Assembly: GCA_022925895.1 (NCBI GenBank)
Contig: JAKSYS010000092.1
Span: 62,001-126,000, forward strand
DNA: 64,000 nucleotides
DNA from: Fragilaria crotonensis
Taxonomy: Eukaryota > Bacillariophyta > Fragilariophyceae > Fragilariales > Fragilariaceae
Reading direction: 5' to 3'
In this document: piece by piece, positions 3,483 through 31,107 of the stretch
How the letters are laid out: every line of letters begins with the position of its first letter
How positions within the stretch are numbered: position 1 is the first letter of the stretch
Translations under genes and position numbers: made by a program
Notes under the pieces: model-generated
Told to the model about the DNA's origin: nothing
The model's input: the letters and a program-made list of their open reading frames with translations, nothing else
Databases searched by the model: none

Positions 3483-3913
3483 TTTTGCATTATCGTTAAG
3501 GAGTAAAGTCGAAGAGGATCAAAGTTTGGTAAATGATCAGATTTTACAAGGGAAAAAATCGAACGTGCAGGTACGCTTGTGACTTGTATGAAGTTCAAGG
3601 CGAATGCGAACCATTAATCAAGAAATGAGAAGCGTATCAGTGGGAAATGTGAGGTACCAACATCTGCCAAGACTGCGAACAAGCTGGAATTCTTGGCGTT
3701 CCAAGCCAAGCGTTTCATACGAAAAGAGACAATGCAAACTACATTAGTCCACTGACGCCACCGCCTATGTTTGCCTTGTCGATGCCAACGAAGAAGAAGA
3801 TCGTATCCAATTAGATGGGGTTCGAATGAATACATCAAGCACATGAGGTGCTCTCCAGTCTTCACGCTTCCTATCCTGCAAACCCAACGGTACAAAATGT
3901 ACAAACTCTACTA
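3483..3913. other. Intergenic, upstream of ABCA copy 1
   Basis: No supported gene. It holds the 5' flank of ABCA copy 1 and ends at the TA target site (3912-3913) of the Tc1/mariner-pogo-like transposon. Part of the original promoter may have been separated from the gene by that insertion. Confidence 0.5.
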
Positions 3914-4191
3914 CACCGAGTACAGTAATTAGTGTGGATATTTAATTAGTGTGGATTACTATATAGTGTGGTCCACACTAATATGTGTTAAGAGTATTTC
4001 TCGTCAGGATTGCTGTTTGTGTGGCTGTTTGGGTGTAGGTTCCCATGTGTACTTCTTGTCTGTGTCTGTGTGGTGGAAAGTCGACGTACTACATACTCAT
4101 GCGTGGGTACTAACCCAAGTTACAGGTACAGTATTATTCATGTGCGAGCGAGGACATGATGCATCACTGATTCATCCAAGGTGATTGTTGG

Positions 4192-5970
4192 TTGTTGCGC
4201 ACGGTGGCAGCATTGGTCATCAGAACACGTGTACATGAGCGATTGCAGCCTACAAGCAAGGGTACTAAGAATCAGGCAATGTCTCGCTTCTCTGCATCCC
4301 CAATCATGGCAGCCTTTGCTCGTGCCAACGTTGTTGGGCCTCCGAACGAGGAGGAAGACGATGACATAATTGGTATGGTGGTACAGGAAATGGCTGAAGA
4401 ACTCCGGGCTCGTGCTGAGGATGCTGATACACAAGATGTTGAGCAAGAAGAGAATCTAGGAGTACTAGAGGATAGGTTACCTCATCAAAAAAGGAGCCTC
4501 CAGCAGGTTGTTACCATCAGTAGTCGCCGGGAGACTGTAAGGTGGATGATGACTGAATTCGATGCTAATGGAAAGAAGGAACTCATATCTAAAGCTGTTG
4601 CCAAGTTTCCCGAGTATTTTCGAGGCAGCTACAAAGCCAACCATCAGAGGGCATCAAATTGGTGGAAAGCTCGACACACCAAGTATTCTAATTACAATAT
4701 GTTACCACCAGCATCGGTGCAAAGGAATCAGATCTCCAAGGTTACCCGGGTGAACTTGAAGGCATCAGCAGGTCGAGGCCGCAAAGCAAGTGCTTGGGTA
4801 GTCCATGTTTATGCAGAGCTGATGGATGAATTCCTCTGTCTCCGAAAGACTGGACTCAAGTTTTCTACAGCACTCTTGGGAACTCTTGCACGCGACATCA
4901 TTAAGAACAGTGATGGGCTGTTCAATTCCCATTATAGAGACCCGCATGACAACAAGTTGATTCAAGACAAAATAACAACACGATGGGTGCAATGCTTCAT
5001 GTCTAATCACAATGTTGTTGTTCGTTCCCAGACTGGAAAGCTGATGTGCAGCCCCGAGAAGGAGCTGCACATACAAAAGACCATTGCTTTTCACATGGGC
5101 GAATTGCATCGTGGTTTTTCATCTGGAGAATTGGATGAAAACCTTATCGAGAACATGGATGAAACTCACTTTGTCATCAATGTAGACAATGGGAGAACAT
5201 TGGGCGTTCGCGGTGACAATGATGTGAAGTATGCAGATGTCGTATCTGGAGGTGAAGGCATGACAATGATGGTTCGACTCACTGGAGGGCCTACATCATA
5301 CATACAGCCCCCGATGATGATATTCACAAACCAAAGTCGCAGCTACCCAATCGCTGCAGTCCCCGACAATATTCCTGGGGTATGTTACCGCTCAGGGCCT
5401 AAGGGATGGAATGATAAAACCCTCTTTCCTCAGTGGTTCACGGAACCTCGAGCATATCAAGGTGACCAACATGGGCGACAAAAAGTGATGTACCTTGACA
5501 ATTGTGGTGGGCATAATCATTCGGATGCCTTAACTGCTGCCTTGGAAGCAACACATACACACATCAAGTACTTCCCTCCATGCGCCACTGATAAAGTTCA
5601 GCCAGCAGACTCGTTTGTCATATCGAAGATAAAGGATGCCTGGAAAAAAAGGTGGGATATAAAAAAGATGGAGATGATTCGAGAGAACATGTGGTCTAAT
5701 GGTGTTCGCAGGGATGGGGCATGGTCGGGTAAGCTGCAGAACCCGGGTAAGAGGTTTTTCCTACAGCTTGCCGCTGATTCCGTCCGAGATGTCAACATGC
5801 AGCGCGATGTGAATGGACTTACCTATGCACGGAAGGCAATGATTCGTTGTGGACTCGCACTTGATGTGACTGGCCTATGGCATATCCAGCAGTTATCCCC
5901 ACAATTGCAAGCCATCATTGCTACCCACCGCAATCATTTTGACGGGGAGGCAGTTCCCCCACCGGGATAA
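4192..5970 (+). CDS. Pogo/Tc1-mariner-like DDE transposase
   Basis: This 592-residue protein would cut and paste the element that carries it. The N-terminal third is rich in acidic and basic residues; residues about 110-260 should hold the HTH/CENP-B-like DNA-binding part (the motif NWWKARH is visible). The catalytic core follows: D323 in NMDETHF, D436 in YLDNCGGH and D473 in VQPADSF, the last in the position of the pogo-type third acidic residue, preceded by the typical FPPCATDKVQP stretch. Spacing between the second and third acid is 36 residues. The reading frame is open throughout. Several in-frame ATGs exist (4192, 4279, 4306); the start at 4279 or 4306 may be the real one, since the first 29 residues look non-conserved. 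It appears intact. Confidence 0.88.
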   Translation: MLRTVAALVIRTRVHERLQPTSKGTKNQAMSRFSASPIMAAFARANVVGPPNEEEDDDIIGMVVQEMAEELRARAEDADTQDVEQEENLGVLEDRLPHQKRSLQQVVTISSRRETVRWMMTEFDANGKKELISKAVAKFPEYFRGSYKANHQRASNWWKARHTKYSNYNMLPPASVQRNQISKVTRVNLKASAGRGRKASAWVVHVYAELMDEFLCLRKTGLKFSTALLGTLARDIIKNSDGLFNSHYRDPHDNKLIQDKITTRWVQCFMSNHNVVVRSQTGKLMCSPEKELHIQKTIAFHMGELHRGFSSGELDENLIENMDETHFVINVDNGRTLGVRGDNDVKYADVVSGGEGMTMMVRLTGGPTSYIQPPMMIFTNQSRSYPIAAVPDNIPGVCYRSGPKGWNDKTLFPQWFTEPRAYQGDQHGRQKVMYLDNCGGHNHSDALTAALEATHTHIKYFPPCATDKVQPADSFVISKIKDAWKKRWDIKKMEMIRENMWSNGVRRDGAWSGKLQNPGKRFFLQLAADSVRDVNMQRDVNGLTYARKAMIRCGLALDVTGLWHIQQLSPQLQAIIATHRNHFDGEAVPPPG

Positions 5971-8224: not shown

Positions 8225-11200
8225 TCACGAGTCGTTCCCTCCAAGCTTTAACTTCTCAGCCTGGGCAGCATGCATGTTGAATACCTGCTCCAACGATGTC
8301 TGGGAAACACCATAATCTGCAAGCATGAGTATGTCCTTGTTGGATTCGATCTTGGCGAAGATGGACGAAATTCTGACGCCAGCAGACCCCACCTCATAGC
8401 GCGCCTTGCTGTACTGGCGCTCTCGAAGGACGTACACTTCAAAGTTATCGCGGAAAAAGTTGTCAAGGTTCACCATTCGAATCTCGGATACGGCAAACGA
8501 GGCCAGCTCTTCGAGAGTGCAACCGACAGGAGATGAAGCACTCTTATAGATGGCATAGCCAGTCGGGTCGTTCACGTTCAACATCGATGAGAGGGATTCG
8601 TCATTTGTCAAGTTCTTCAGAGCCGAGACTGCTTGATTAAGCGTCAAATAAATTTCCTTAACGATTCCTTCCTCTTCGTCGACATTTCCACCCACGGCGT
8701 TGGCGAGTTTGTTTCTGACCTCCGCATAATCAGCGTCGCCGGAGTCCACCACCTTCGTCTTCAGTTCTACCTGATACCCTTGACCAAACCGAGTCTTGAG
8801 ATGCTGGGCAGATCCGAGACAACTCAAACTTCCATTTGCCATCACTCCAATCCGAGGACACAATGCTTCGCATTCTTCCATGGAATGTGTGGTAAGAATG
8901 ACGGATGTGCGCTCTTCGTCTGGAATGCTTCCTCCAGTGACCATCTCAGAAATAACAGCCCAAAGATCGCGACGGGCCACAGGATCCATACCCGTTGATG
9001 GTTCGTCCAGGAACACCAGCTGCGGTTGACCAATCGTCGCACAAGCTACACTGAGCTTTCTCTTCATTCCTCCACTATACCCGGAACTAACACGGTCACT
9101 GTCGAACTCGCTTAGTCCAACCTCGGCTAGCTTCTGGCTAACGGCTTCTTGTACATACTCGGGTGGTACCCCCTTGATAGCAGCGTAAAGCTGCACGTGC
9201 TCGCGCCCTGTCATATTCTGAAAGTGAGCGTCAAACTGAGGGCAATACCCAACTCTTCGACGTGTCTTCTCGGGCTCCCGCGTAACGCTAAATCCGGCGA
9301 GCGTCGCGTCTCCGCTAGTGGGTGGAAACTCTCCAGTTAAAATGCCCATCGTTGTTGTTTTTCTGTTAGGATTCGTATCAAAGTTAGAATTATCATCATA
9401 ATTGACATGAGGAATTGGCAACACAAACTCACCCAGCCCCATTGATACCGAGGAGACCGAAACACTGACCCGGTGGGATGCCGAGAGAGAGATTATTCAC
9501 CGCAACCTTCCCATTGCCGTACACTTTCTTCAGTTGATCAATTACAATTAAGTCATTGTTCGCCTCTCCGGCGGCAACTCTCAGATTCTCCGCAACCACG
9601 TCTTCATCCAGCACAACCTCAGAACTAAGTTCTTCGCGTCTTGACGTACTGCCACCGCACATACATCGGCAGGTGACGAAACGGATGCACTTTTGCCAGA
9701 TTCCCAAAGTTCTTGGGTTGGTAGACCATTTGTCTAGCTGGATAGCAAGGATGATGTATACAAAACACCAAATCCCCTGAAAGATGGTCTCGTAAAGAAT
9801 CATGGAAGAGTGCCAAACATCGATTGGCTGCTGCGCAAGTCCTTCATAGGCCACGATGTTTATAATCTTGAGGAGAGAGCTGCCAAGGTTGAAGGAAGGG
9901 AAAAAGCGAAGAATCCACTCAACAACAGTGGCAGCGGTGACAAGGCTGGGGTTATTGAGCCCAGAAGGATCGCCGATGAGACGAAGAATGAGAGCGACCA
10001 AGGGACCAGCTAGCCCAATCAAGAAGCCGAAGATGATTACGAAAAGGTTGCACATTGATGGCGAGGTGAAGGCGAAACTCACACAGTAGGTGAAACCAGC
10101 CGCCGCTGGACCGAAAAGGAACAACGAAATGATTGTTCCACCCACCACACCCCGTTCACTCGTTGTGTAGGGATCAACATCGAACACGAACATCACAACA
10201 ACTGTAATCCACAGCGGTAATTGATAGTTCATAATGTCCCACATGTACGATGATAACCAGTAGGCCTCAGGTTGCACACCAGCAACAGTTTGCAAGTGCT
10301 TGGCTTTTGAAGACCTTTCAGTCACGATGAATGTCGCAAATGTTCCGGCGATGAAAGGGAAGGACAAGACCACCAAGAACCAAGCTGTGAATGCTTTCTC
10401 GCTCTTTCCAAAACTAGTTTCCGCATCGGTCAGAGGAAGGGGGTGAACAGTTGCAGAGATCATCAGTTCGTCGTCATTCGTAGCCTCCCTCATAAGGGCC
10501 TCGTCTGCGAGAGCTTGATAGACCAAGGACGCATGCAAGGCGGTGTAGTTGTAGTTCACTACGTACCCAACACCACCATACGTCTCACAATACGAGGCGT
10601 TGAAGTAAGGTTGCGGATACTGCGCGACAAAAGCCGTGCACTTGCCAACCACAAGTGTCGAGTAGTTCTGGCCCACAGTCTGGCTCACTCGGTCGTGAGT
10701 GAAATGAAGTGCACCAAACTGCGTCCCAGCAAACACCTTGCTCGACTCCAATATGCTCTGGGAACTCGAGAGAATATCGGTGTTGTCCTGTGGAACGCCT
10801 CCGGCTCCAGCCTCGGTGATGCGGTCAACGATGTCGGTGGATTCGCTGATCGAGCAGGATGATTCGATGTCCCCGTTAAGACCAATACCGCAGTAAGTGT
10901 ACAAATTGCTTTGGTTGGTATTACCCATCATGATAGCAATCGGGAGAGTTCCGTTGAATTGCACCATGCAAACTCCAGGTTGGCACGTAAAACTGGTCCC
11001 TGGCTCGTTAAATGGGATTGGATTTCGAGGTTGGCTGGTGATAGTAGGGTTGAAGGAGTCGATGGATAGTTCAAGAGCGTCCAAGTTCCGCACAGGAGCA
11101 GTAAACTTGTACAGCATAAAGCCAACCAAGACAAGAATGGAAGGCAGAAGCGTCGAGCACACCCACGCCTTCTTGTCTCTTTTGAAATTCAAGGCCCGCT

Positions 11201-14200
11201 TACGAAAGAGGGATCCTACGTGCCTTGTAAAAAGTCCTTCGTTGTCCAAATTCATTCTCGAACGAATGCTCTTGTCGGCCTCTCCCAGCAAATCGCCACC
11301 TCCTGCTCTTGATGACTTCAAGTCGACCTTCTCGCCGGTTTCGCCACGCGCAACCAACAAGAATACTTCGTCTAGAGTCGTGATGCTGACGCCGTATGTA
11401 ACAATATTCTCCTCGTCCATTTCACGGTCAAGCTTCTCAAACATCGGGGTAAACTTGTCTGCTGCTCCAATAGGAAGCTGGAACGACAACTCCGTCCCTA
11501 CGTTATTCAACAGAGTCGCCTCAGGAACTGCACCAAGCACGACCTCCTCTAAATTGGCGACGACGCCACTTTCTGACATATCATTGGCATTATCGCAACT
11601 GTACTCAACGCTTTCATCATCAACGACTTTTCCGGTGCCCTTCGTGGCGGTTCCTACCCTCGCCTTCTGCTCAATGGTGAGCTGATACCCAACTCCATAA
11701 TGCTTTTTCAGGAACAAAGAACTACCGGCACAACGAAGTTGCCCTTCCGCCATGATAGCAATACGGTCTCCTAGGATATCGGCCTCTTTCAATCAAGAGA
11801 ATAAACGACAGTGAGTCATAAATTCTCAAGAGAAAGAAAAATACTCGTCGCACGAAAACGAATACTTACCATCCATGAAATGCGTGGTAAGAACAATGCA
11901 GCGATCCTGGCGATACTGTCGGATCACATTCCAAGTGAAGCGACGGCTGAAGGGGATCCATACCTGATGTTGGTTCATCCAGGAGTACCGTCTTGCTCTC
12001 GCCACAAAAAGCAATGGCAAGGCTCAGCTTTCGCTTCATTCCACCACTCAGGTTTTTCGAAAAGGTGTTTCTCTTCTCCAGGAGGGCGACATCCTCGATA
12101 GACTTGAGAATTTTTGCTTCAACCTCAGCCCTTGAGTACTTCGCGTAAAGACCTTTCAAACGCGAAAAGAATTGGATGTGTTCCTGTACTGTCAGTTGAG
12201 GAAACAAGCAATCCTGATAACAGTGGTTAGATGTTGCAATGGCAAGCAGAAGTGCGTAATCCACCTCAGACACTCACATGCTGGAGGCAGATTCCTGTCT
12301 CTTGACGAATTTTGGTCATTTCCGTTCGAACATCCCTTCCTCCGACAACGGCATAGCCATCGCTTGGTGCTAACATGCCAGTGAGCATGCTAATGGTTGT
12401 TGTCTTTCCAGCTCCGTTGTGTCCTGAAATGGAGTGTTAGAAAGTCGAAATGAGAACCGACGGAATCAAAAAAAGGACGCACGATTTGAAACGTACCCAG
12501 CAACGCCGTGATCTGATTGCTATACATCGTGAGATTGAGGTTATCAACAGCAGTCTTCTCGCCGAACTGCTTGCGGAGGCCACGGATGGCAATGCCCTTG
12601 CCTTCCTTGATGGAGGCATGAAGAGCATCACTAACTTCTTCAACAGGAACCCCGTAAGCGGTGACGTCGAGATCATCTAAAGCTTTTCCAGCTGCGGCCC
12701 TTCCACCGCACCAGTACGAGCCGCTGCATAAGAAGTACCACGGCAAGGATTGTCCAAAGTCGGAGCGTTTCACACGATTGACGTAGAAGGTGACCAACCC
12801 CCACACAACGCATGAAAAGCAGAGAGAGGTCAATGATGATACAAAGGTGTACCCTGACGGGCTATCCGTTGTAGTAATGGTGCTACTAATAGCACCCACA
12901 CCTGCATCTTCCAACCTTCCGATCTCTTGCATTCCGTAGGAGATGGCAGCGACGGGATGGAGGGAAACAAGAGCGATGACACCCGCGGAGCCTGTTTCAA
13001 AACTGGCAATATTGGTAAGAAAGTAGCCAACGAAGAACAATAGTTCACCAACCAACGTTGCTGTAGTTGCTTTCGAAAACATCGCGGCAACGGCGAAGGA
13101 AAAGGTGATAATGGCCGTAAATCCCAAAATCCAAAAGATAAGGAGGATAGTAAAGCTTGAGTTTTCGTAGAGGCTTGCACTGGCTGCTGCCGAACCGAAT
13201 GCAGTGACAAGATGGAAAAGGAAGAATGATGTGAACCACGACCAACCGATATCGCTTTCAGACACTGACATCATCTTCATAAGTTCTTTCTGGCGAAGCT
13301 CCTTTTCCAGGACAACGCTACGAAGAACGCTGGCGACAGGGTACAACAGTCCAAGAACAATCAACAGAGGAGCATACGCTTGAATTCGAAGAGGAAGGTC
13401 AGTCACGGCGGAAATAATGAATACGAGCAGACGTGTCGGATGGTGTTACTCACCTGCAATCGAAGCATAAAATCCATTGACAGTGTACTCTCGTGTTGGA
13501 AAAGATACGAACTGCACTCCATGTTCCGAAACGAACATGCCTTCATCCGCACTTCCAGAATCGACCAAAATCCAATCCTGAATGGTGCGCTGAACGGCAA
13601 TCGCTCCGTTGTAGAGGTACTGCCCAGTACACGAATCCTGCAACGGGCCCTGTTTGGCAGTTCCGTCGGCAGGTGGGCATGCATCATCAACGTTGCTGTA
13701 GTACGAAAACAGTTTATTGGTTGGAGGGCTGGTGGATTGGGCTGGACGTCCATCTTTCTCCGCTTGATTGAAGTTGGTGGAGTTCTGGCGAAGAGTATAC
13801 GCATAGTCCTTCTCCGAGGAGCCATCCGTGAAAACGACAGCAAAGCCAATCTTGGGGAAACCAGTCTTGCCATAGTCGGGAGATGTTACGTACGATGAAA
13901 TCGCCGTATCGGAGTCAAACAGCTTCACAAGGGGAAAGTCGACTGGCACACTGCCGTCAGCAACTTGAGGGTAAGTAGTTTTGATGTAGGCTTCGAACGC
14001 TTGAGCTCTGGCAAGACCACGAACAGAAGAATCGTCCTGCGGAGCAATGGCAAGAAGGAGGTATTCACAGAAAACAGTCGCATCCTGGCCAGTCTCCGAG
14101 CAACGACGACGATCACACTTCAGGAAAGGATTCTGGTTGTCGTAGAATCCTGAGACCTGAAATGGCCACTGCTGAGGGCTGGGGTAGGAAGGCTCACAGA

Positions 14201-14564: not shown

Positions 14565-15874
14565 TCTTGCAGGGCTTTCAAATCGATACAATCTATGAAC
14601 GCTCAAATAGATTTATCTCACGAAGTGATCTCTGTGTACACTGGAATTGCAATGCAGAGAAATCAGCTCTAATCTGGAATTGCTGGCGATTGACGGTATG
14701 TCTGGTGTACTTGGATGTGGTATTGTACTCTTGAGTACGAGAAGGTTTCTTTTTTATGTGAATCTTGTCATTTTTCTGACTTGCGTCATCCGATGAAAAC
14801 AAATCGTGCAGAAATTTCACAGAGAACGAATCGAACAGTTGCGTTGTCCAGGTACGACTAGTAGTTGAACTGGTACTGGGACCTGGAACTACGGTACCGA
14901 AACAAGCAGAGTATGTCATACTAAGTGAAACTACCAGGTCCATGTACCGTAGAGGGATATCGTGCTGAACGGAACTCCAGAACTCTGGTAATAGTACTGA
15001 GTATGTTGTAGGTGTGGTTGCGGTGGTACGAATACCAGTACTGGAGTAATGTGATCATCTACTGCAGTACGGAGTTGTACACGTGAAAATGCCAAGACAC
15101 GACCCAAAGACCGGAACACCAAGGAACACTTTGTTCTCGTCGAACACCAGTGAACTCCGCTCTGTTTTGGGATGCATATGACAAATGACGCATGACTGCA
15201 TGACTCTGACGCATGATGCAAGATGAAATATTCGGGTGTCTTATATGGGCTCGAAGGTCCTATGTCATATGATATGTCATATGTATGCATGGTGCATACG
15301 TCCCATGTCCCAATACACCAGTGTCCGAGTGACGTATGATACGACAGTTATTTCGATCGGAAGATAGAAATAGCTGAGTCCAGCTTTGCACATAGTACAT
15401 GTACTGTAGATTACAGTACAGTAGCTTAGCCGAACAGGCGCACACTTGCCGAAGGATCACACGTTCAGATCGCCGTATTCGATTGCTCGTAACTGTACAG
15501 TACAACAGTACGTTTGCGAAGATACAGTACAGGATCACTCCGTACCGGTACCTCGCAGTGGTCCTAAGTCCTACTCGAGTACTCTACTAGCCGTACATAA
15601 CACACTCCGAAAAACAGTGACTATGCACAGTCACCTCGCTACTCTACGGGTAGTAGACATTAATACTCTAGAGCGAAAATAGCCTATAGGTCTAATGGAG
15701 AGCAGATAGAGTAAAACAGAAATGATAAACATATTGGTACCAGGTAGCCTCGTAGTAGAGTCTTGCTGTGTGTAGTCTCTGGGTTATTCTACTCCACTGT
15801 TGTTACCCTTTTCAATCATGTAAACGTTACAATTGTACTTCGACAGCATATTATGTAAGTGTACTTTATTTGTA
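14565..15874. other. Intergenic, ABCA copy 2 upstream region and MULE target flank
   Basis: No gene is supported. The DNA is dense in GTAC, AGTACT and CATATG palindromes. The 9-bp target duplication TTATTTGTA of the neighbouring MULE is at 15866-15874. Confidence 0.5.
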
Positions 15875-16430
15875 GGGGAAATTGCTATCGTACCTGTTAT
15901 CTATTCCAAAAATTGAAAACACCTGTTATCGGCTATAATATACCCCCTCAAATGACAATAATAGCATGCTAACTTTTACTATATCAAAAACACCTATTAT
16001 CTTTTTGCCATGTTTTCAATAGCACCATTTATGTTTTACACAACTTGCAATATCACCTATTACAATTTGCAATAACACCTGTTTCGATTATGCCAATTTC
16101 AACTCCACGCAAATTATCGTACCCCATAACGTAGAATGCCAACACATTGACACACTTTCAAAGGTAAGGATCTCACGCATTGCTTAGCATTATCATGTGC
16201 TTCTCACTGATGAAATAAGCTGTGTTATTCCATTGACAATGCTTGGTGTGATGGTGTGAGGAAGTATGTGGTCATCTTGTGTGCTCTTGGGTACATTCTG
16301 GTCGCATTGTCATATGCCTTCAGATTTCTCGGGCTTGAGATGGGTCAGTAACAAAAAATCGCTCGTATACAGTGGTGTACAAATGTACAACGACGATCTT
16401 TTATGACACCAACACAACACAATCTCATCA
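15875..16430 (+). repeat. Left terminal inverted repeat of the MULE
   Basis: 556 bp, ending in CACAATCTCATCA just before the 5' flank of the coding region. Near-identical to the right arm in inverse orientation. Contains repeated AACACCTGTTAT/ATCACCTATTAC units. Confidence 0.92.
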
Positions 16431-16513
16431 GCCATTCATCATCATCAACAGCATCACCCTCTCCCTCCCCCTTCCCTTTTTGACAGTCCCTGACACTGAT
16501 TTCTTGTCTCATT

Positions 16514-16912
16514 ATGCCACCAAAGAAGAAGCCAAGAAGAGCAGCAGTTGAGAAGAGCTTTTTTCCAGGAGACCCAAGGTTCTCTATTCCTCTCTCGGCA
16601 CATGCAGAAGATGTGCAGGCGCTGCAGGAGAATAAGTATTTGAGTACAAACCTGTTGGACTACTTGATCCAAAGAGGAGCTCCATCTCCCACACCACCAT
16701 TGCTTCCTCCCTCTCAGGATGAAGATATATCCGCACCACCATTGTACATTGGTGGATTAGCAACAACTTTCTTCATTGAGAAGGCAAATGAACTGGTGCT
16801 CCAATCAACGTCGCAAAAGAGCCTTGAAATCATTCGAACGAGCCTGAAGAGCTACAAAGCCACCACCCTTGCCAGGGGATCAAGCAAAGCTTGTTGTGCC
16901 AATGGTTCATAA
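16514..16912 (+). CDS. MULE protein, N-terminal part (ahead of ULP1 domain)
   Basis: The frame starts at an ATG (MPPKKKPRRAAVEK), a basic start that could be a nuclear localisation signal. It continues through a proline-rich stretch and YIGGLATTFFIEKANELV, which fits the region before the catalytic histidine of ULP1-like proteases. The frame ends at 16912, while the protease domain continues in another frame that is open only after about 16848, so the two frames overlap by about 60 bp. An unrecognised splice, a frameshift or a consensus indel are all possible; no clear GT-AG pair was found. Confidence 0.6.
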   Translation: MPPKKKPRRAAVEKSFFPGDPRFSIPLSAHAEDVQALQENKYLSTNLLDYLIQRGAPSPTPPLLPPSQDEDISAPPLYIGGLATTFFIEKANELVLQSTSQKSLEIIRTSLKSYKATTLARGSSKACCANGS

Positions 16913-19424
16913 GTCACATTTCTTTGTCCTTGTGATTGAGTTGACTGGAAAGCATGGTTGTGAATTCTACAAGGGTATTGAGTGCTATGACTCGATGGAT
17001 TTTTGCAGTGCACCTACGACAAGGACACGAGGTGCAGCAAGTCATATTCGTGCATTTCTTGCTGAATTTCACAAATTCGCGCTTTACTTTGTCTGTGATG
17101 ATAAGTTTAAGATAGGTCGCCCTCAAACTCAGGTCAAGCACTGCCCATGTCCGACTCAAGGTAATCTGATTGATTGTGGCCTCTTTTCGATTGGTGTGGT
17201 TCTGCACATCATCGACAGTATTCCAATCACCAATGAAACTTTCAAACAAGAACATATGACAAAACTACGTTCTGATTTGGCAACTCACCTTGCCGCTGTT
17301 GAAAACTTATCCAAGTATCCACTTCCTTGCAGTGTCATCAGAGGATGCTTTCCCGCATTGCTCACCATGGACGACACCGATGATGGCAGCATTGTGGTTC
17401 TTGGAGTATCAAAAAATGCAGAGGACTCAGCAAATGCCGAGTCCTCAACTACTGAAGTTGAGGTCATCATGGACGGAAAGGTATCAACAAATGATGTGTC
17501 TGCTAATGCTGCAGAGTCATCCGCAGCCTTCTCATGTAATGTCATTGAGGGTATAGTGGATGGTAATGTAGCAACTAAAGAGTCAGCAGCAAAGGATGCA
17601 ACACAGTCGCCTGGCATGCTTAAGCTTCTCATGGAAATGATCTCACCGGCAAGCCGTGCCATGAAGAAGTGTGGAGGCAAGATATTGAGATTTGAGGAAG
17701 GAGAGGAGAAGAACGATAAGAACGATACTGAAAAGAAGAAGGTTGCTCGCGGTAGCAATATTGTACTAGTGCAAGCCCAGAAGACAGACTCCCAGGGCAT
17801 GCCAAGTGAAGGTCAGGAAGAACAAGGATGCCAACCACTACAAGCACCTAACAAAATGAACACCGATGCAAAAGAGCAAGTTGAAGATGTTGTATTTTCC
17901 AAACTAGTGAAGGAACTCAAAATTGAGTCCTTCAAAAGCCTTGCTGATGTGACTCCAGTCATGGAGCAATACCAGAAGCAGTCGGGATGTCAGGTTGCAA
18001 TTCGTCGAAGTGAAGTGGACAAGTTCCGGGTCTACAAATGCGCTGAGCACGTCAACTGTGTGTTCAAGGTTCATGTTGGGAAGAGACGAATAGATGGCAA
18101 GTATGTCATCAAGAAGAAGCAATCTGTGTTGCGTCACACAACGGTCCGTCGTCCACTCAAAGCAAGTGATGGGCGACAGTGGAAACAGCGGCGCGCTGAA
18201 AAGTTCAGGAATACATTGAAGAGGCTGCAAAACGAAGGTTGGAATACCAACTGCCCGAGATGTGATGAAAACGGGATCTCTGAAGGAGATTCTGTGTCTT
18301 ACTTTGCTGCCTACCGTGGCCTCCACAAAGACTCACTAATGTCAAAGCACAGAGCAAAAGAAGGCTACCAGCAAATGATTCCATACCTGCAACAGCTACT
18401 GAAAGGCAATGCGGCTTCAGTCATCGAGTGGGAGACAAATGAGGATCATGAATTACTACAGGCTATGGTGATTCCGGGATTTATGGATGGCATCCTTAAG
18501 TTTGTACGCCCCGTGATCTCACTCGATGCGGCGCATATGAAATGTGCAGACCATGTTGGCACTCTTTACATTGCTTCTGTATTGTCAGGAGCTAACGAGG
18601 TATATCCGATTGGCTTCCTGCTGTCTTCTGGAAATGAAGACCGAGAAACATGGACACACTTCCTGACAACGCTGAAACAGGCTTGCCCTTCTTTGTGTGA
18701 AAGGGATGCGACAACTGAGCTGAATCCTTTCATCTTTATCTCAGATCGTGACAAGGGACTTCAACAAGCCCTGGATGACGTGTTCCCAGACAACACAAAC
18801 GTGCTGTGTGTCAAGCACATTGAAGCCAATGTGAAGCAGAGGTTTGGTGCACAATGTGCGGCATATGTATTTCGGATTGCACGCACATTCTCTACTCGGC
18901 AGGAGAAGTTCTTCATTGATCAAGTACGGAAGCTAAGACCAGCCGCTGCAACCTACATAGAAAGCATTGATGGATTGTGGAAGAATACATCTTGGCTGGA
19001 TGAGAACATGAGACTTCCGCCTCGGTATGGAATCATTACATCAAACACAAGCGAATCTGCCAATAGCATGTTCCTTGCACCTCGCAGCATGCCATGGCTC
19101 AAAGCAATCGAGAAGATTATTGACATCATGACGAGTCGCATTTCAAGAAATAGAATGAAGTATGTTGACAAGAATCCAGATAATGTTGTTGCTGCTGTCT
19201 GGCAAAGGATTAGAGATGAAAGGGATGCTTCGGCCGGCTTTGATGTGTACAAGTTGGCAAGTGGAGGAGGGCAATATAAGGTAACACCTCAAACACAAGA
19301 AATGAGTTCGGGGGGATCGTGCAACACACATAATTCGGGTAATCGAAAAGGTGGTGTACTTGTGGCTTCTGGCAAGATATTGGTATTCCGTGCCGTCACT
19401 TCATGGCATGTTTTCGAAAATTGA
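16869..19424 (+). CDS. ULP1-like C48 protease fused to MULE transposase
   Basis: The 851-codon frame is numbered from the TTG at 16869. Residues about 10-150 are a ULP1-like cysteine protease: H17 (in HKSHFFVLV), D41 (ECYDSMDF), Q97 and C103 (QGNLIDCGLF) make a complete catalytic set. A low-complexity linker follows. Residues about 350-460 look like a FLYWCH/WRKY-GCM1 type zinc DNA-binding region (CAEHVNCVFKVHVGKRR). The MULE core has D553 (SLDAAHMK), D626 (FISDRDKG) and E729 (SNTSESAN). In the family the protease-bearing members are plant KI-type MULEs; protease function in transposition is not known. Near 19310-19350 the frame is lost: the SWIM finger is encoded in another frame, next to a G6 run and an A4 run. 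Confidence 0.88.
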   Translation: MPGDQAKLVVPMVHKSHFFVLVIELTGKHGCEFYKGIECYDSMDFCSAPTTRTRGAASHIRAFLAEFHKFALYFVCDDKFKIGRPQTQVKHCPCPTQGNLIDCGLFSIGVVLHIIDSIPITNETFKQEHMTKLRSDLATHLAAVENLSKYPLPCSVIRGCFPALLTMDDTDDGSIVVLGVSKNAEDSANAESSTTEVEVIMDGKVSTNDVSANAAESSAAFSCNVIEGIVDGNVATKESAAKDATQSPGMLKLLMEMISPASRAMKKCGGKILRFEEGEEKNDKNDTEKKKVARGSNIVLVQAQKTDSQGMPSEGQEEQGCQPLQAPNKMNTDAKEQVEDVVFSKLVKELKIESFKSLADVTPVMEQYQKQSGCQVAIRRSEVDKFRVYKCAEHVNCVFKVHVGKRRIDGKYVIKKKQSVLRHTTVRRPLKASDGRQWKQRRAEKFRNTLKRLQNEGWNTNCPRCDENGISEGDSVSYFAAYRGLHKDSLMSKHRAKEGYQQMIPYLQQLLKGNAASVIEWETNEDHELLQAMVIPGFMDGILKFVRPVISLDAAHMKCADHVGTLYIASVLSGANEVYPIGFLLSSGNEDRETWTHFLTTLKQACPSLCERDATTELNPFIFISDRDKGLQQALDDVFPDNTNVLCVKHIEANVKQRFGAQCAAYVFRIARTFSTRQEKFFIDQVRKLRPAAATYIESIDGLWKNTSWLDENMRLPPRYGIITSNTSESANSMFLAPRSMPWLKAIEKIIDIMTSRISRNRMKYVDKNPDNVVAAVWQRIRDERDASAGFDVYKLASGGGQYKVTPQTQEMSSGGSCNTHNSGNRKGGVLVASGKILVFRAVTSWHVFEN

Positions 19425-19768
19425 GAGATAGAATGGAATTCACAAGTCTGTTGTCTGAATCACACGATGGCATACCAGACTTTTACAAGTACAAGGCACT
19501 GCAGCTTCTTTATGAACCGAACATTGTTCCAGTTGTGGTAGACACAATTGGTTATGACGGAAAAACAAAGCCTCCTCCACCAAGAATCAAGAGACAACCT
19601 GGTAGACCAAAAGTGAAAAGATACCGCAGACGGAGTGAACTCTCTGACCCATCAAAGTCGCCAATTGTGTGTTCCAAATGTAGAGAGCGTGGACACAATC
19701 GCCGAACATGTGGAATGAAACCAAAGGTGGTCCTTACAGAGGTTGCTGACAACAAACAAGAAGAATAG
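19340..19768 (+). CDS. MULE C-terminus: SWIM zinc finger and zinc knuckle
   Basis: This frame is the C-terminal continuation of the transposase. It encodes WCTCGFWQDIGIPCRH, a SWIM finger of CxC...CxH form that MULE transposases carry after the catalytic core. A basic, proline-containing region (KPPPPRIKRQPGRPK) follows, then a CX2CX4HX4C zinc knuckle (CSKCRERGHNRRTC), and the frame ends at 19768. It is out of phase with the preceding catalytic frame by a small indel. The zinc knuckle is likely to help DNA or RNA binding. Confidence 0.8.
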
Positions 19769-19847
19769 TAGCTCTTAAAGTAGTTCAAGTTGCATGTATA
19801 TGTGGTGTTGTGGCTGTTGCTCTTGATCATGAAGAACAGCTACTTCA

Positions 19848-20404
19848 TGATGAGATTGTGTTGTGTTGGTGTCATAAAAAGATCGTCGTTGTACATTTGT
19901 ACACCACTGTATACGAGCGATTTTTTGTTACTGACCCATCTCAAGCCCGAGAAATCTGAAGGCATATGACAATGCGACCAGAATGTACCCAAGAGCACAC
20001 AAGATGACCAGATACTTCCTCACACCATCACACCAAGCATTGTCAATGGAATAACACAGCTTATTTCATCAGTGAGAAGCACATGATAATGCTAAGCAAT
20101 GCGTGAGATCCTTACCTTTGAAAGTGTGTCAATGTGTTGGCATTCTACGTTATGGGGTACGATAATTTGCGTGGAGTTGAAATTGGCATAATCGAAACAG
20201 GTGTTATTGCAAATTGTAATAGGTGATATTGCAAGTTGTGCAAAACATAAATGGTGCTATTGAAAACATGGCAAAAAGATAATAGGTGTTTTTGATATAG
20301 TAAAAGTTAGCATGCTATTATTGTCATTTGAGGGGGTATATTATAGCCGATAACAGGTGTTTTCAATTTTTGGAATAGATAACAGGTACGATAGCAATTT
20401 CCCC
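19848..20404 (-). repeat. Right terminal inverted repeat of the MULE
   Basis: Inverse copy of the left arm. One base longer because of a 5-T instead of 4-T run near the inner end. Followed directly by TTATTTGTA. Confidence 0.92.
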
Positions 20405-20413
20405 TTATTTGTA

Positions 20414-23521: not shown

Positions 23522-23890
23522 GGCAGAAATTGCTATTGTACCTTATATCTATGCAAAAAATAGAGATAGTACGTGTACCCCCCTACTAATTGACAATAAT
23601 AGCATGCTTACTACTAGCTAGTATATCAATCACACGACCTGTTATCTTTTACCACAATCTGTAATACTACCACCTGTTATGATTTTCAATGGCATGACCT
23701 GTTTTCTTGTTGCCAATTTCAACTCCACACAAATGTTGAGGATACCATGTAATGTACTACAATTCCACCACATTGACATATGCCATCAAGGTATTGATCT
23801 CATGCATTGCTCAGTTTCAAAAATTGTTTCCAACTGAAAGAATATGGTGCATTAGTAGTCTGTTGACAAGCTTTGAAGTGATGGTAGGCA
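23522..23890 (+). mobile_element. Diverged fragment of a related MULE terminal repeat
   Basis: The sequence from GAAATTGCTATTGTACC onward aligns over about 350 bp with the left arm of the MULE at 15875. It shares ACAATAATAGCATGCT, GACCTGTTATC and GCCAATTTCAACTCCAC in the same order. Many substitutions and indels mark it as much older than the intact element. The matching right arm was not seen. Homology fades just before the left end (23906) of a Harbinger-type element that probably inserted into it. Confidence 0.75.
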
Positions 23891-26299: not shown

Positions 26300-26719
<420 letters not shown>

Positions 26720-30732: not shown

Positions 30733-30782
30733 ATTTCGTCTTTTCGCTACCGCGTTGTCGTTGGATTGTTGATGCTAGCGAT

Positions 30783-31107
30783 TGGTGCGATGGGTGTGAT
30801 GGGTGTGATGGGTGTGATGGGTGTGATGGGTGTGATGGGTGTGATGGGTGTGATGGGTGTGATGGGTGTGATGGGTGTGATGGGTGTGATGGGTGTGATG
30901 GGTGTGGTGGGTGTGGTGGGTGTGGTGGGTGTGGTGGGTGTGATGGGTGTGATGGGTGTGATGGGTGTGATGGGTGTGATGGGTGTGATGGGTGCGATGG
31001 GTGCGATGGGTGCGATGGGTGCGATGGGTGCGATGGGTGCGATGGGTGCGATGGGTGCGATGGGTGCGATGGGTGCGATGGGTGCGATGGGTGCAATGGG
31101 TGTGAGC
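30783..31107. repeat. 9-bp minisatellite (GGGTGYGAT)n
   Basis: About 36 tandem copies of a 9-bp unit. The variants occur in blocks: GTGATGGGT, a block of four GTGGTGGGT, GTGATGGGT again, then about 14 GCGATGGGT. Because the unit is a multiple of three without stops, several frames on both strands stay open (for example His-Pro-Ser repeats), and these are not counted as genes. Confidence 0.95.

Follow-up and report, generated by a model that had tools for sequence, protein, structure and literature searches.

A Ulp1-type protease fused to the N-terminus of a MULE transposase in the diatom Fragilaria crotonensis

Results

The stretch of DNA analysed here (hereafter the window) comprises 64,000 nucleotides of contig C875 in the 62.1-Mb, 881-contig assembly of F. 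crotonensis, a genome marked as a diatom's by 19 silicon transporter matches (best 4e-193). At positions 15875–20404 of the window lies a transposable element that belongs to the Mutator superfamily by its MULE domain, its target duplication of about 9 bp and its long terminal inverted repeats. The left repeat (15875–16430, plus strand, 556 bp) and the right one (19848–20404, minus strand, 557 bp) agree at 554 aligned positions, with 2 mismatches and a single gap, which matches the 556-bp repeats of the initial annotation, and the perfect 9-bp target duplication that it reported is present as TTATTTGTA on both sides (15866–15874 and 20405–20413). A target duplication of about 9 bp is the defining range for MULEs. 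The genome search for other copies proposed in that annotation returned 44 DNA matches to the left arm, the window's own two counted in. Taken together, the arms, the duplication and these matches exclude a chance origin of the structure.

Within the family of the window element (family W), a perfect 9-bp duplication was found in 7 of the 10 copies examined, the window among them; two copies of the ten reach contig ends (L009 and L011) and one, L017, has no target duplication. Since L012, L014 and L015 represent one insertion on three contigs, the duplications correspond to five independent sites. No empty site of the window insertion was present in the assembly, in which only the two flanks match. 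The left arm carries four sub-terminal CACCTRTT motifs, which are candidate binding sites, starting at 15920, 15991, 16054 and 16076 (15920–16083, plus strand) and mirrored by four in the right arm (20196–20359, minus strand); the motif search gave 11 matches in the window, 8 of them in the arms, and this total was reached by none of 100 shuffles. A degraded relic of the W terminal repeat (69–71% identity) with one CACCTRTT inside (23671) is located 3 kb from the element, on the plus strand at 23526–23814 (C875:85526–85814). Elsewhere in the genome, locus L023 contains two W arms placed back to back (locus positions 3741–4619; C870:98740–99618) and otherwise has no match to the element; to judge by its arrangement, this pair is a foldback-type non-autonomous derivative.

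The remainder of the window contains another DNA transposon, represented by a 599-aa plus-strand frame with a DDE_1 transposase domain (4171–5967; 5.7e-11). To the left of the element, minus-strand frames at 1241–2272, 8228–9496, 9432–11792 and 12393–13445 match ABC-2 membrane, ABC_tran and ABCA1 regulatory domains and are apparently ABCA-type transporter genes. A perfect (TGT)106 tract occupies 26376–26693, and a 36-copy array of a 9-bp unit lies within a collagen-like frame at 30780–31105. The window gave no Rfam match at the gathering threshold.

The coding part of the window copy, all on the plus strand, had been described as one coding region but consists of three ORFs in three frames. 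ORF1 (16514–16912) encodes the N-terminus and the first part of the protease domain, as judged from its alignment through L011 with the six other families. ORF2 (16869–19424) contains the rest of the protease, with H17, D41, Q97 and C103, followed by a linker, a DNA-binding region and the DDE domain with D553, D626 and E729; all seven residues stand where they had been placed. Both profile assignments were confirmed above their cut-offs: Peptidase_C48 (PF02902, clan CE) at ORF2 residues 8–139 (16890–17285; E 9.6e-7, 29.3 bits, cut-off 20.7) and the MULE transposase domain (PF10551) at residues 549–653 (18513–18827; E 2.3e-9, 38 bits, cut-off 27.6). Between them, at approximate borders 17925–18200, alignment places a zinc DNA-binding region that appears WRKY-GCM1-like from a model of the corresponding region of the relative L054. 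ORF3 (19403–19768) encodes the C-terminal part and holds SWIM and the knuckle. The SWIM match (19352–19423) begins 5' of the ORF3 ATG in the same frame and just exceeds the cut-off (19.8 vs 19.6 bits), whereas the zinc knuckle stands as a C-x2-C-x4-H-x4-C pattern seen by eye in the ORF3 frame (19670–19711), over which no zinc-knuckle model reached its cut-off.

The frame changes were compared by aligning ten other W copies, one of them partial (L018), with the window copy. Small length differences relative to the window occur at the first joint in 10 of 10 copies and at the second in all 9 that reach it. L011 has a single stop-free frame of 801 aa that starts at the N-terminus, takes in the protease and continues into the transposase; it lacks 225 bp holding the first DDE aspartate. 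Splicing as the cause of the three frames was rejected, for the length differences at both joints and the intron-free first joint of L011 make it unlikely; the window copy is frame-broken and calls for no intron such as the spliced transcript over 16514–19768 envisaged in the initial annotation would imply. In none of the ten W-family copies measured, one of them the window's, does a single frame cover the whole protein, and the longest frame among them (858 aa) is the window's own. The element was called young, which agrees with its arms and its target duplication; its broken frame, like those of the other W copies, means that this youth does not extend to an autonomous copy as assembled. Part of the damage is probably assembly error. 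The single insertion represented by L012, L014 and L015 (contigs C71, C298 and C62) has an identical 9-bp duplication and identical flanks on all three contigs, while its copies differ pairwise by 14–22 mismatches and 19–30 gap openings over about 5.1 kb in blastn, or by 17–29 mismatches and 20–30 indel events in MAFFT alignments, where mismatches are ahead in one of the three pairs. As far as the alignments tell, the three contigs are thus either haplotypes or duplicates of one contig, with assembly errors rich in indels.

Since the window copy lies in three frames and many copies are frame-broken, one might suppose that the two domains only seem fused through the way the sequence was read, each belonging to a gene of its own. 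This explanation is hardly credible, being refuted at the DNA level by a relative on contig C873, in which one stop-free frame of 1042 aa, with its first Met at residue 2 and closed by a stop codon, contains in order the protease, the linker, the DNA-binding region, DDE, SWIM and a knuckle (the last by eye). The C48 and MULE domains of this protein exceed the Pfam cut-offs within its first 744 aa, and its C-terminal SWIM scores 28.1 bits against the cut-off of 19.6. At least 58 C48 matches were found genome-wide at E ≤ 0.01, all above the cut-off, and in 6 of the 58 listed a C48 and a MULE match share one open frame of up to 1042 aa. The N-terminal fusion of an Ulp1-type protease to a MULE transposase, which the initial annotation had proposed, is thus real at the DNA level.

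This arrangement is not restricted to a few frames. In the Pfam lists, which like the other search lists give lower bounds, 35 of the 58 C48 matches have a MULE match within 5 kb on the same strand, 5 on the other strand and 18 none. Of the 108 MULE matches, 68 lack a C48 match within the same distance, some of them being W copies (on C62, C230, C298, C71 and C461) for which protein search does find a C48 relative. When 126 transposase matches from protein queries were merged into 75 loci, which take in many fragments and four long loci of a family (family E) with the DNA-binding domain only and no DDE, a C48 relative was found upstream on the same strand, 109–888 bp away, in 59, and in 60 when C471 is counted. 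Among the other 15 loci, C840 has no protease and only a 27-aa W-like tail. By these pairings, one MULE lineage of the genome has the fusion as its norm, and the window element is not a one-off. Of 18 MULE loci fetched as having no nearby C48 match, a tblastn match to the transposase of L054 or of the window, the two queries whose hits were listed, was obtained only for C471, which on inspection does carry a C48 relative. In the DDE tree 16 of 18 fetched loci were entered as non-fused and C471 as fused, with L079 left out; a branch with 100/100 support separates 12 fused rows plus C18 from the remaining 16 rows, which comprise 15 non-fused loci plus the transposase accompanying the family-E protease. 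C18, a non-fused locus, groups with the fused rows and has a long branch; excluding C18, the clade of fused rows is supported at only 84/44. By the tblastn result and this tree, the fused lineage appears set apart from the genome's other MULEs.

The domain at the N-terminus of the transposase has, according to its profile match and the model of copy L011, an Ulp1/SENP-type cysteine protease fold, and the His-Asp-Gln-Cys set is present in the window copy. A phmmer search of PDB gave an Ulp1-like protease as the best match at E 0.11; as this match is weak, the identification is carried by the profile and the fold. The catalytic tetrad is kept in 7 of 7 families at 25–34% identity to the first sequence. 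Over the window and 50 loci, a set in which the window is counted twice (through L035), the histidine is conserved in 38 of 40 aligned sequences, the aspartate in 36 of 39, the glutamine in 35 of 38 and the cysteine in 35 of 38. Departures occur in L014, L015, L016, L017, L019, L028 and L045, and the W copies among these carry frame changes. Omega was below 1 in 13 of 14 finite comparisons, and the protease is under selection. In searches for relatives, viral contigs gave no pattern match with L054 and 22 pattern matches each with A1 and A2, none of them confirmed, while genome contigs yielded a single weak match, to a Chlamydiales MAG (L096; 34% over 44 residues).

These observations bear on whether the protease is simply a passenger, that is a captured host gene fragment without function, as in many Pack-MULE captures. 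MULEs do capture host genes, and plant KIUs show low or undetectable expression (PMC6117577); nevertheless, the retention of the tetrad at such divergence, the omega values and the pairing of protease with transposase at most loci make this explanation very improbable.

Five units form family E: C20:8676–17000 (L090/L080/L046/L091), C137 (L042), C313 (L043), C579 (L044) and C346 (L038), the last with an internal deletion. The protein of the fused kind encoded here has lost DDE and SWIM and has kept the protease, the DNA-binding region and the knuckle, which on C20 lie in one 502-aa frame, the N-terminus excepted. The same DDE-less join is common to the four long copies (C20, C137, C313 and C579); the linker of three of these carries a frame change, and in C20 the frame shifts close to the N-terminus. 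In the C48 tree family E is placed inside the fused clade, between W/F and A–D (90/97, with long-branch warnings), so the loss of DDE and SWIM is probably derived. In all four long copies a second, different MULE transposase, which falls on the non-fused side of the DDE tree, is found about 3 kb from the C48 gene in convergent orientation. On C346 perfect 35-bp inverted ends surround both genes, and no 9-bp duplication was seen by eye at these ends. Upstream of the family-E C48 gene is a tandem array with a 31/62-bp unit (6.4 copies of 31) that contains CAATAACACC words, and the family also holds a 101-bp tandem array. The pattern CAATA[AT]CACC occurs twice in the W arm with leader, nine times upstream in family E and not at all in families A–D; since the pattern was picked after both W and E had been seen, the sharing is suggestive only.

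Discussion

The presence of Ulp1-type proteases in transposons is in itself well documented. They are described in MULEs of Arabidopsis, maize, rice, melon and grapevine (PMC2528002, PMC13317346, PMC2836005) and in Mutator elements of hydra and lancelet (PMC2836005), and the C48/Ulp1 domain as such is reported from several superfamilies, including plant MULE, CACTA, Ginger1, Crypton and animal Mutator (PMC13317346, PMC2836005, PMC3212892). With the plant, hydra and lancelet Mutator elements and Ginger1 in print, the idea of a fusion is less unusual than the initial annotation stated, while its remark that such a diatom element would be unusual still agrees with the literature searched, in which no diatom C48–MULE fusion was found among the matches listed (Repbase and most subscription papers lay outside the search).

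The known systems differ from the diatom element in arrangement. The plant KI-MULE (Kaonashi)/KIU elements and the melon, rice and grapevine MULEs are likewise Mutator elements with C48/Ulp1 (PMC2528002, PMC13317346, PMC6117577). As described there, however, the ULP gene of KI-MULEs is separate from mudrA and in reverse orientation to it, and inverted ends are lacking, whereas in the diatom the ULP domain forms the N-terminal end of the transposase, the two sharing one frame in intact relatives, and the arms are 556 bp long; the ULP of the grapevine elements is reported downstream of the transposase ORF in either orientation, in contrast to the N-terminal position here. Ulp1 is shared also with the Mutator elements of hydra and lancelet, and the Ginger paper aligns Ulp1 domains of 'Mutator TPases' (PMC2836005). 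Ginger1 too combines a DDE transposase with a fused Ulp1, but its DDE domain is described as Gypsy-integrase-like and its Ulp1 (or OTU) domain as C-terminal (PMC2836005), while the diatom element has a MULE-type DDE and an N-terminal protease. Among stramenopiles, the MULE-Diatoms group 37 of Dupeyron et al. (2019) has SWIM as the present element does; by the published description its arms are 123–124 bp, no TSD is indicated and no protease is named, and the words peptidase, protease and ulp are absent from the main text of that paper (PMC6446971). Oomycete Cryptons are stramenopile DNA transposons that likewise carry a C48 (Ulp1) peptidase, with a tyrosine recombinase instead of the DDE enzyme found here (PMC3212892). 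What our data add to the known Ulp1 transposons is a lineage in which N-terminal fusion is usual, together with the two-gene derivative, family E, which merits closer study than the window copy itself.

In the diatom lineage the protease is a part of the transposase itself. We consider the element to be a cut-and-paste MULE with a multidomain transposase composed, from the N-terminus, of an Ulp1/SENP-type protease, an acidic linker, a WRKY-GCM1-like zinc DNA-binding domain, the DDE nuclease, SWIM and a CCHC knuckle. What is observed is the fusion at the DNA level, the arms with their 9-bp duplication, the conserved catalytic residues and the selection acting on the protease, whose fold is modelled. 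The DNA-binding domain would dock on motifs repeated in the ends of the element itself, excision and insertion would fall to the DDE part, and the predicted protease, which may cleave SUMO (or Nedd8), would take SUMO or a related modifier off proteins gathered on the element DNA. Removal of host SUMO marks is possible, as the host genome has SUMO-family genes (12 matches, best 1.1e-15), and SUMO promotes silent chromatin in yeast, plants and animals (PMC8131101). The likeliest benefit would be that an enzyme brought to the DNA of its own element lifts silencing there, so that the source element stays expressed while the remaining host chromatin is little affected. A multidomain transposase whose tethered protease locally relieves silencing is, as a whole, the best explanation, to which we assign a probability of about 0.5; if it is true, anti-silencing by de-SUMOylation exists in a lineage far from plants.

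Two other functions have to be weighed against it. The protease could cut its own linker and free the transposase, as its N-terminal position ahead of a long linker would permit; viral relatives of the Ulp1-type fold do process viral proteins. In one protein per family, however, Gly-Gly occurs at no shared place after the protease (B 249 and 297, A 304, W 385 and 410, C 253, D only 670), and such polyprotein processing appears quite improbable. A role in transposition itself is a more serious, if rather doubtful, candidate: by removing SUMO from the transposase, or from proteins that repair the DNA where it has been cut, the protease would alter stability or the outcome of repair, silencing being uninvolved. 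The same anatomy fits, action at the same place and time suits the joint presence of protease and transposase at most loci, and the Ginger paper itself suggests repair factors as the targets of Ulp1 and OTU domains (PMC2836005). Against it stands family E, which keeps the protease, the DNA-binding domain and the knuckle without DDE, although its partner transposase could still be a client. The existence of family E indicates that the protease and the DNA-binding domain are useful apart from the nuclease, which favours targeted anti-silencing over self-processing; it may also be compatible with action on repair proteins.

As families of different divergence keep the catalytic residues and a natural version without the nuclease exists, the question whether a DNA-targeted SUMO protease relieves silencing or assists transposition becomes testable in a diatom. 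A model for family E is provided by the plant VANDAL elements, described as having a separate transposase and an element-encoded DNA-binding protein, VANC, whose targets are tandem repeats in non-coding parts of these elements (PMC5735166). VANC, however, acts on DNA methylation, whereas family E has short inverted ends and a C48–DNA-binding–knuckle protein derived from a fused transposase; its resemblance to a VANDAL/VANC-like anti-silencing system would lie in the anatomy. We tentatively suggest, as a possible history, that diatoms arrived independently at VANC/KIU-like targeted anti-silencing: one MULE lineage would have fused a SUMO protease to its transposase, and an unrelated MULE of about 8.5 kb with 35-bp ends (family E) would then have taken over the portion with protease, DNA-binding domain and knuckle, shed the DDE and SWIM domains, and multiplied its binding motif (CAATAACACC, present in the W arms as well) to form a tandem array beside the gene, the product being a DNA-targeted deSUMOylase acting in trans. 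Repeated words are also seen in the fused families, where each has its own short word upstream of the genes (L047, L054, L037 and L048); these words are possibly family-specific binding sites.
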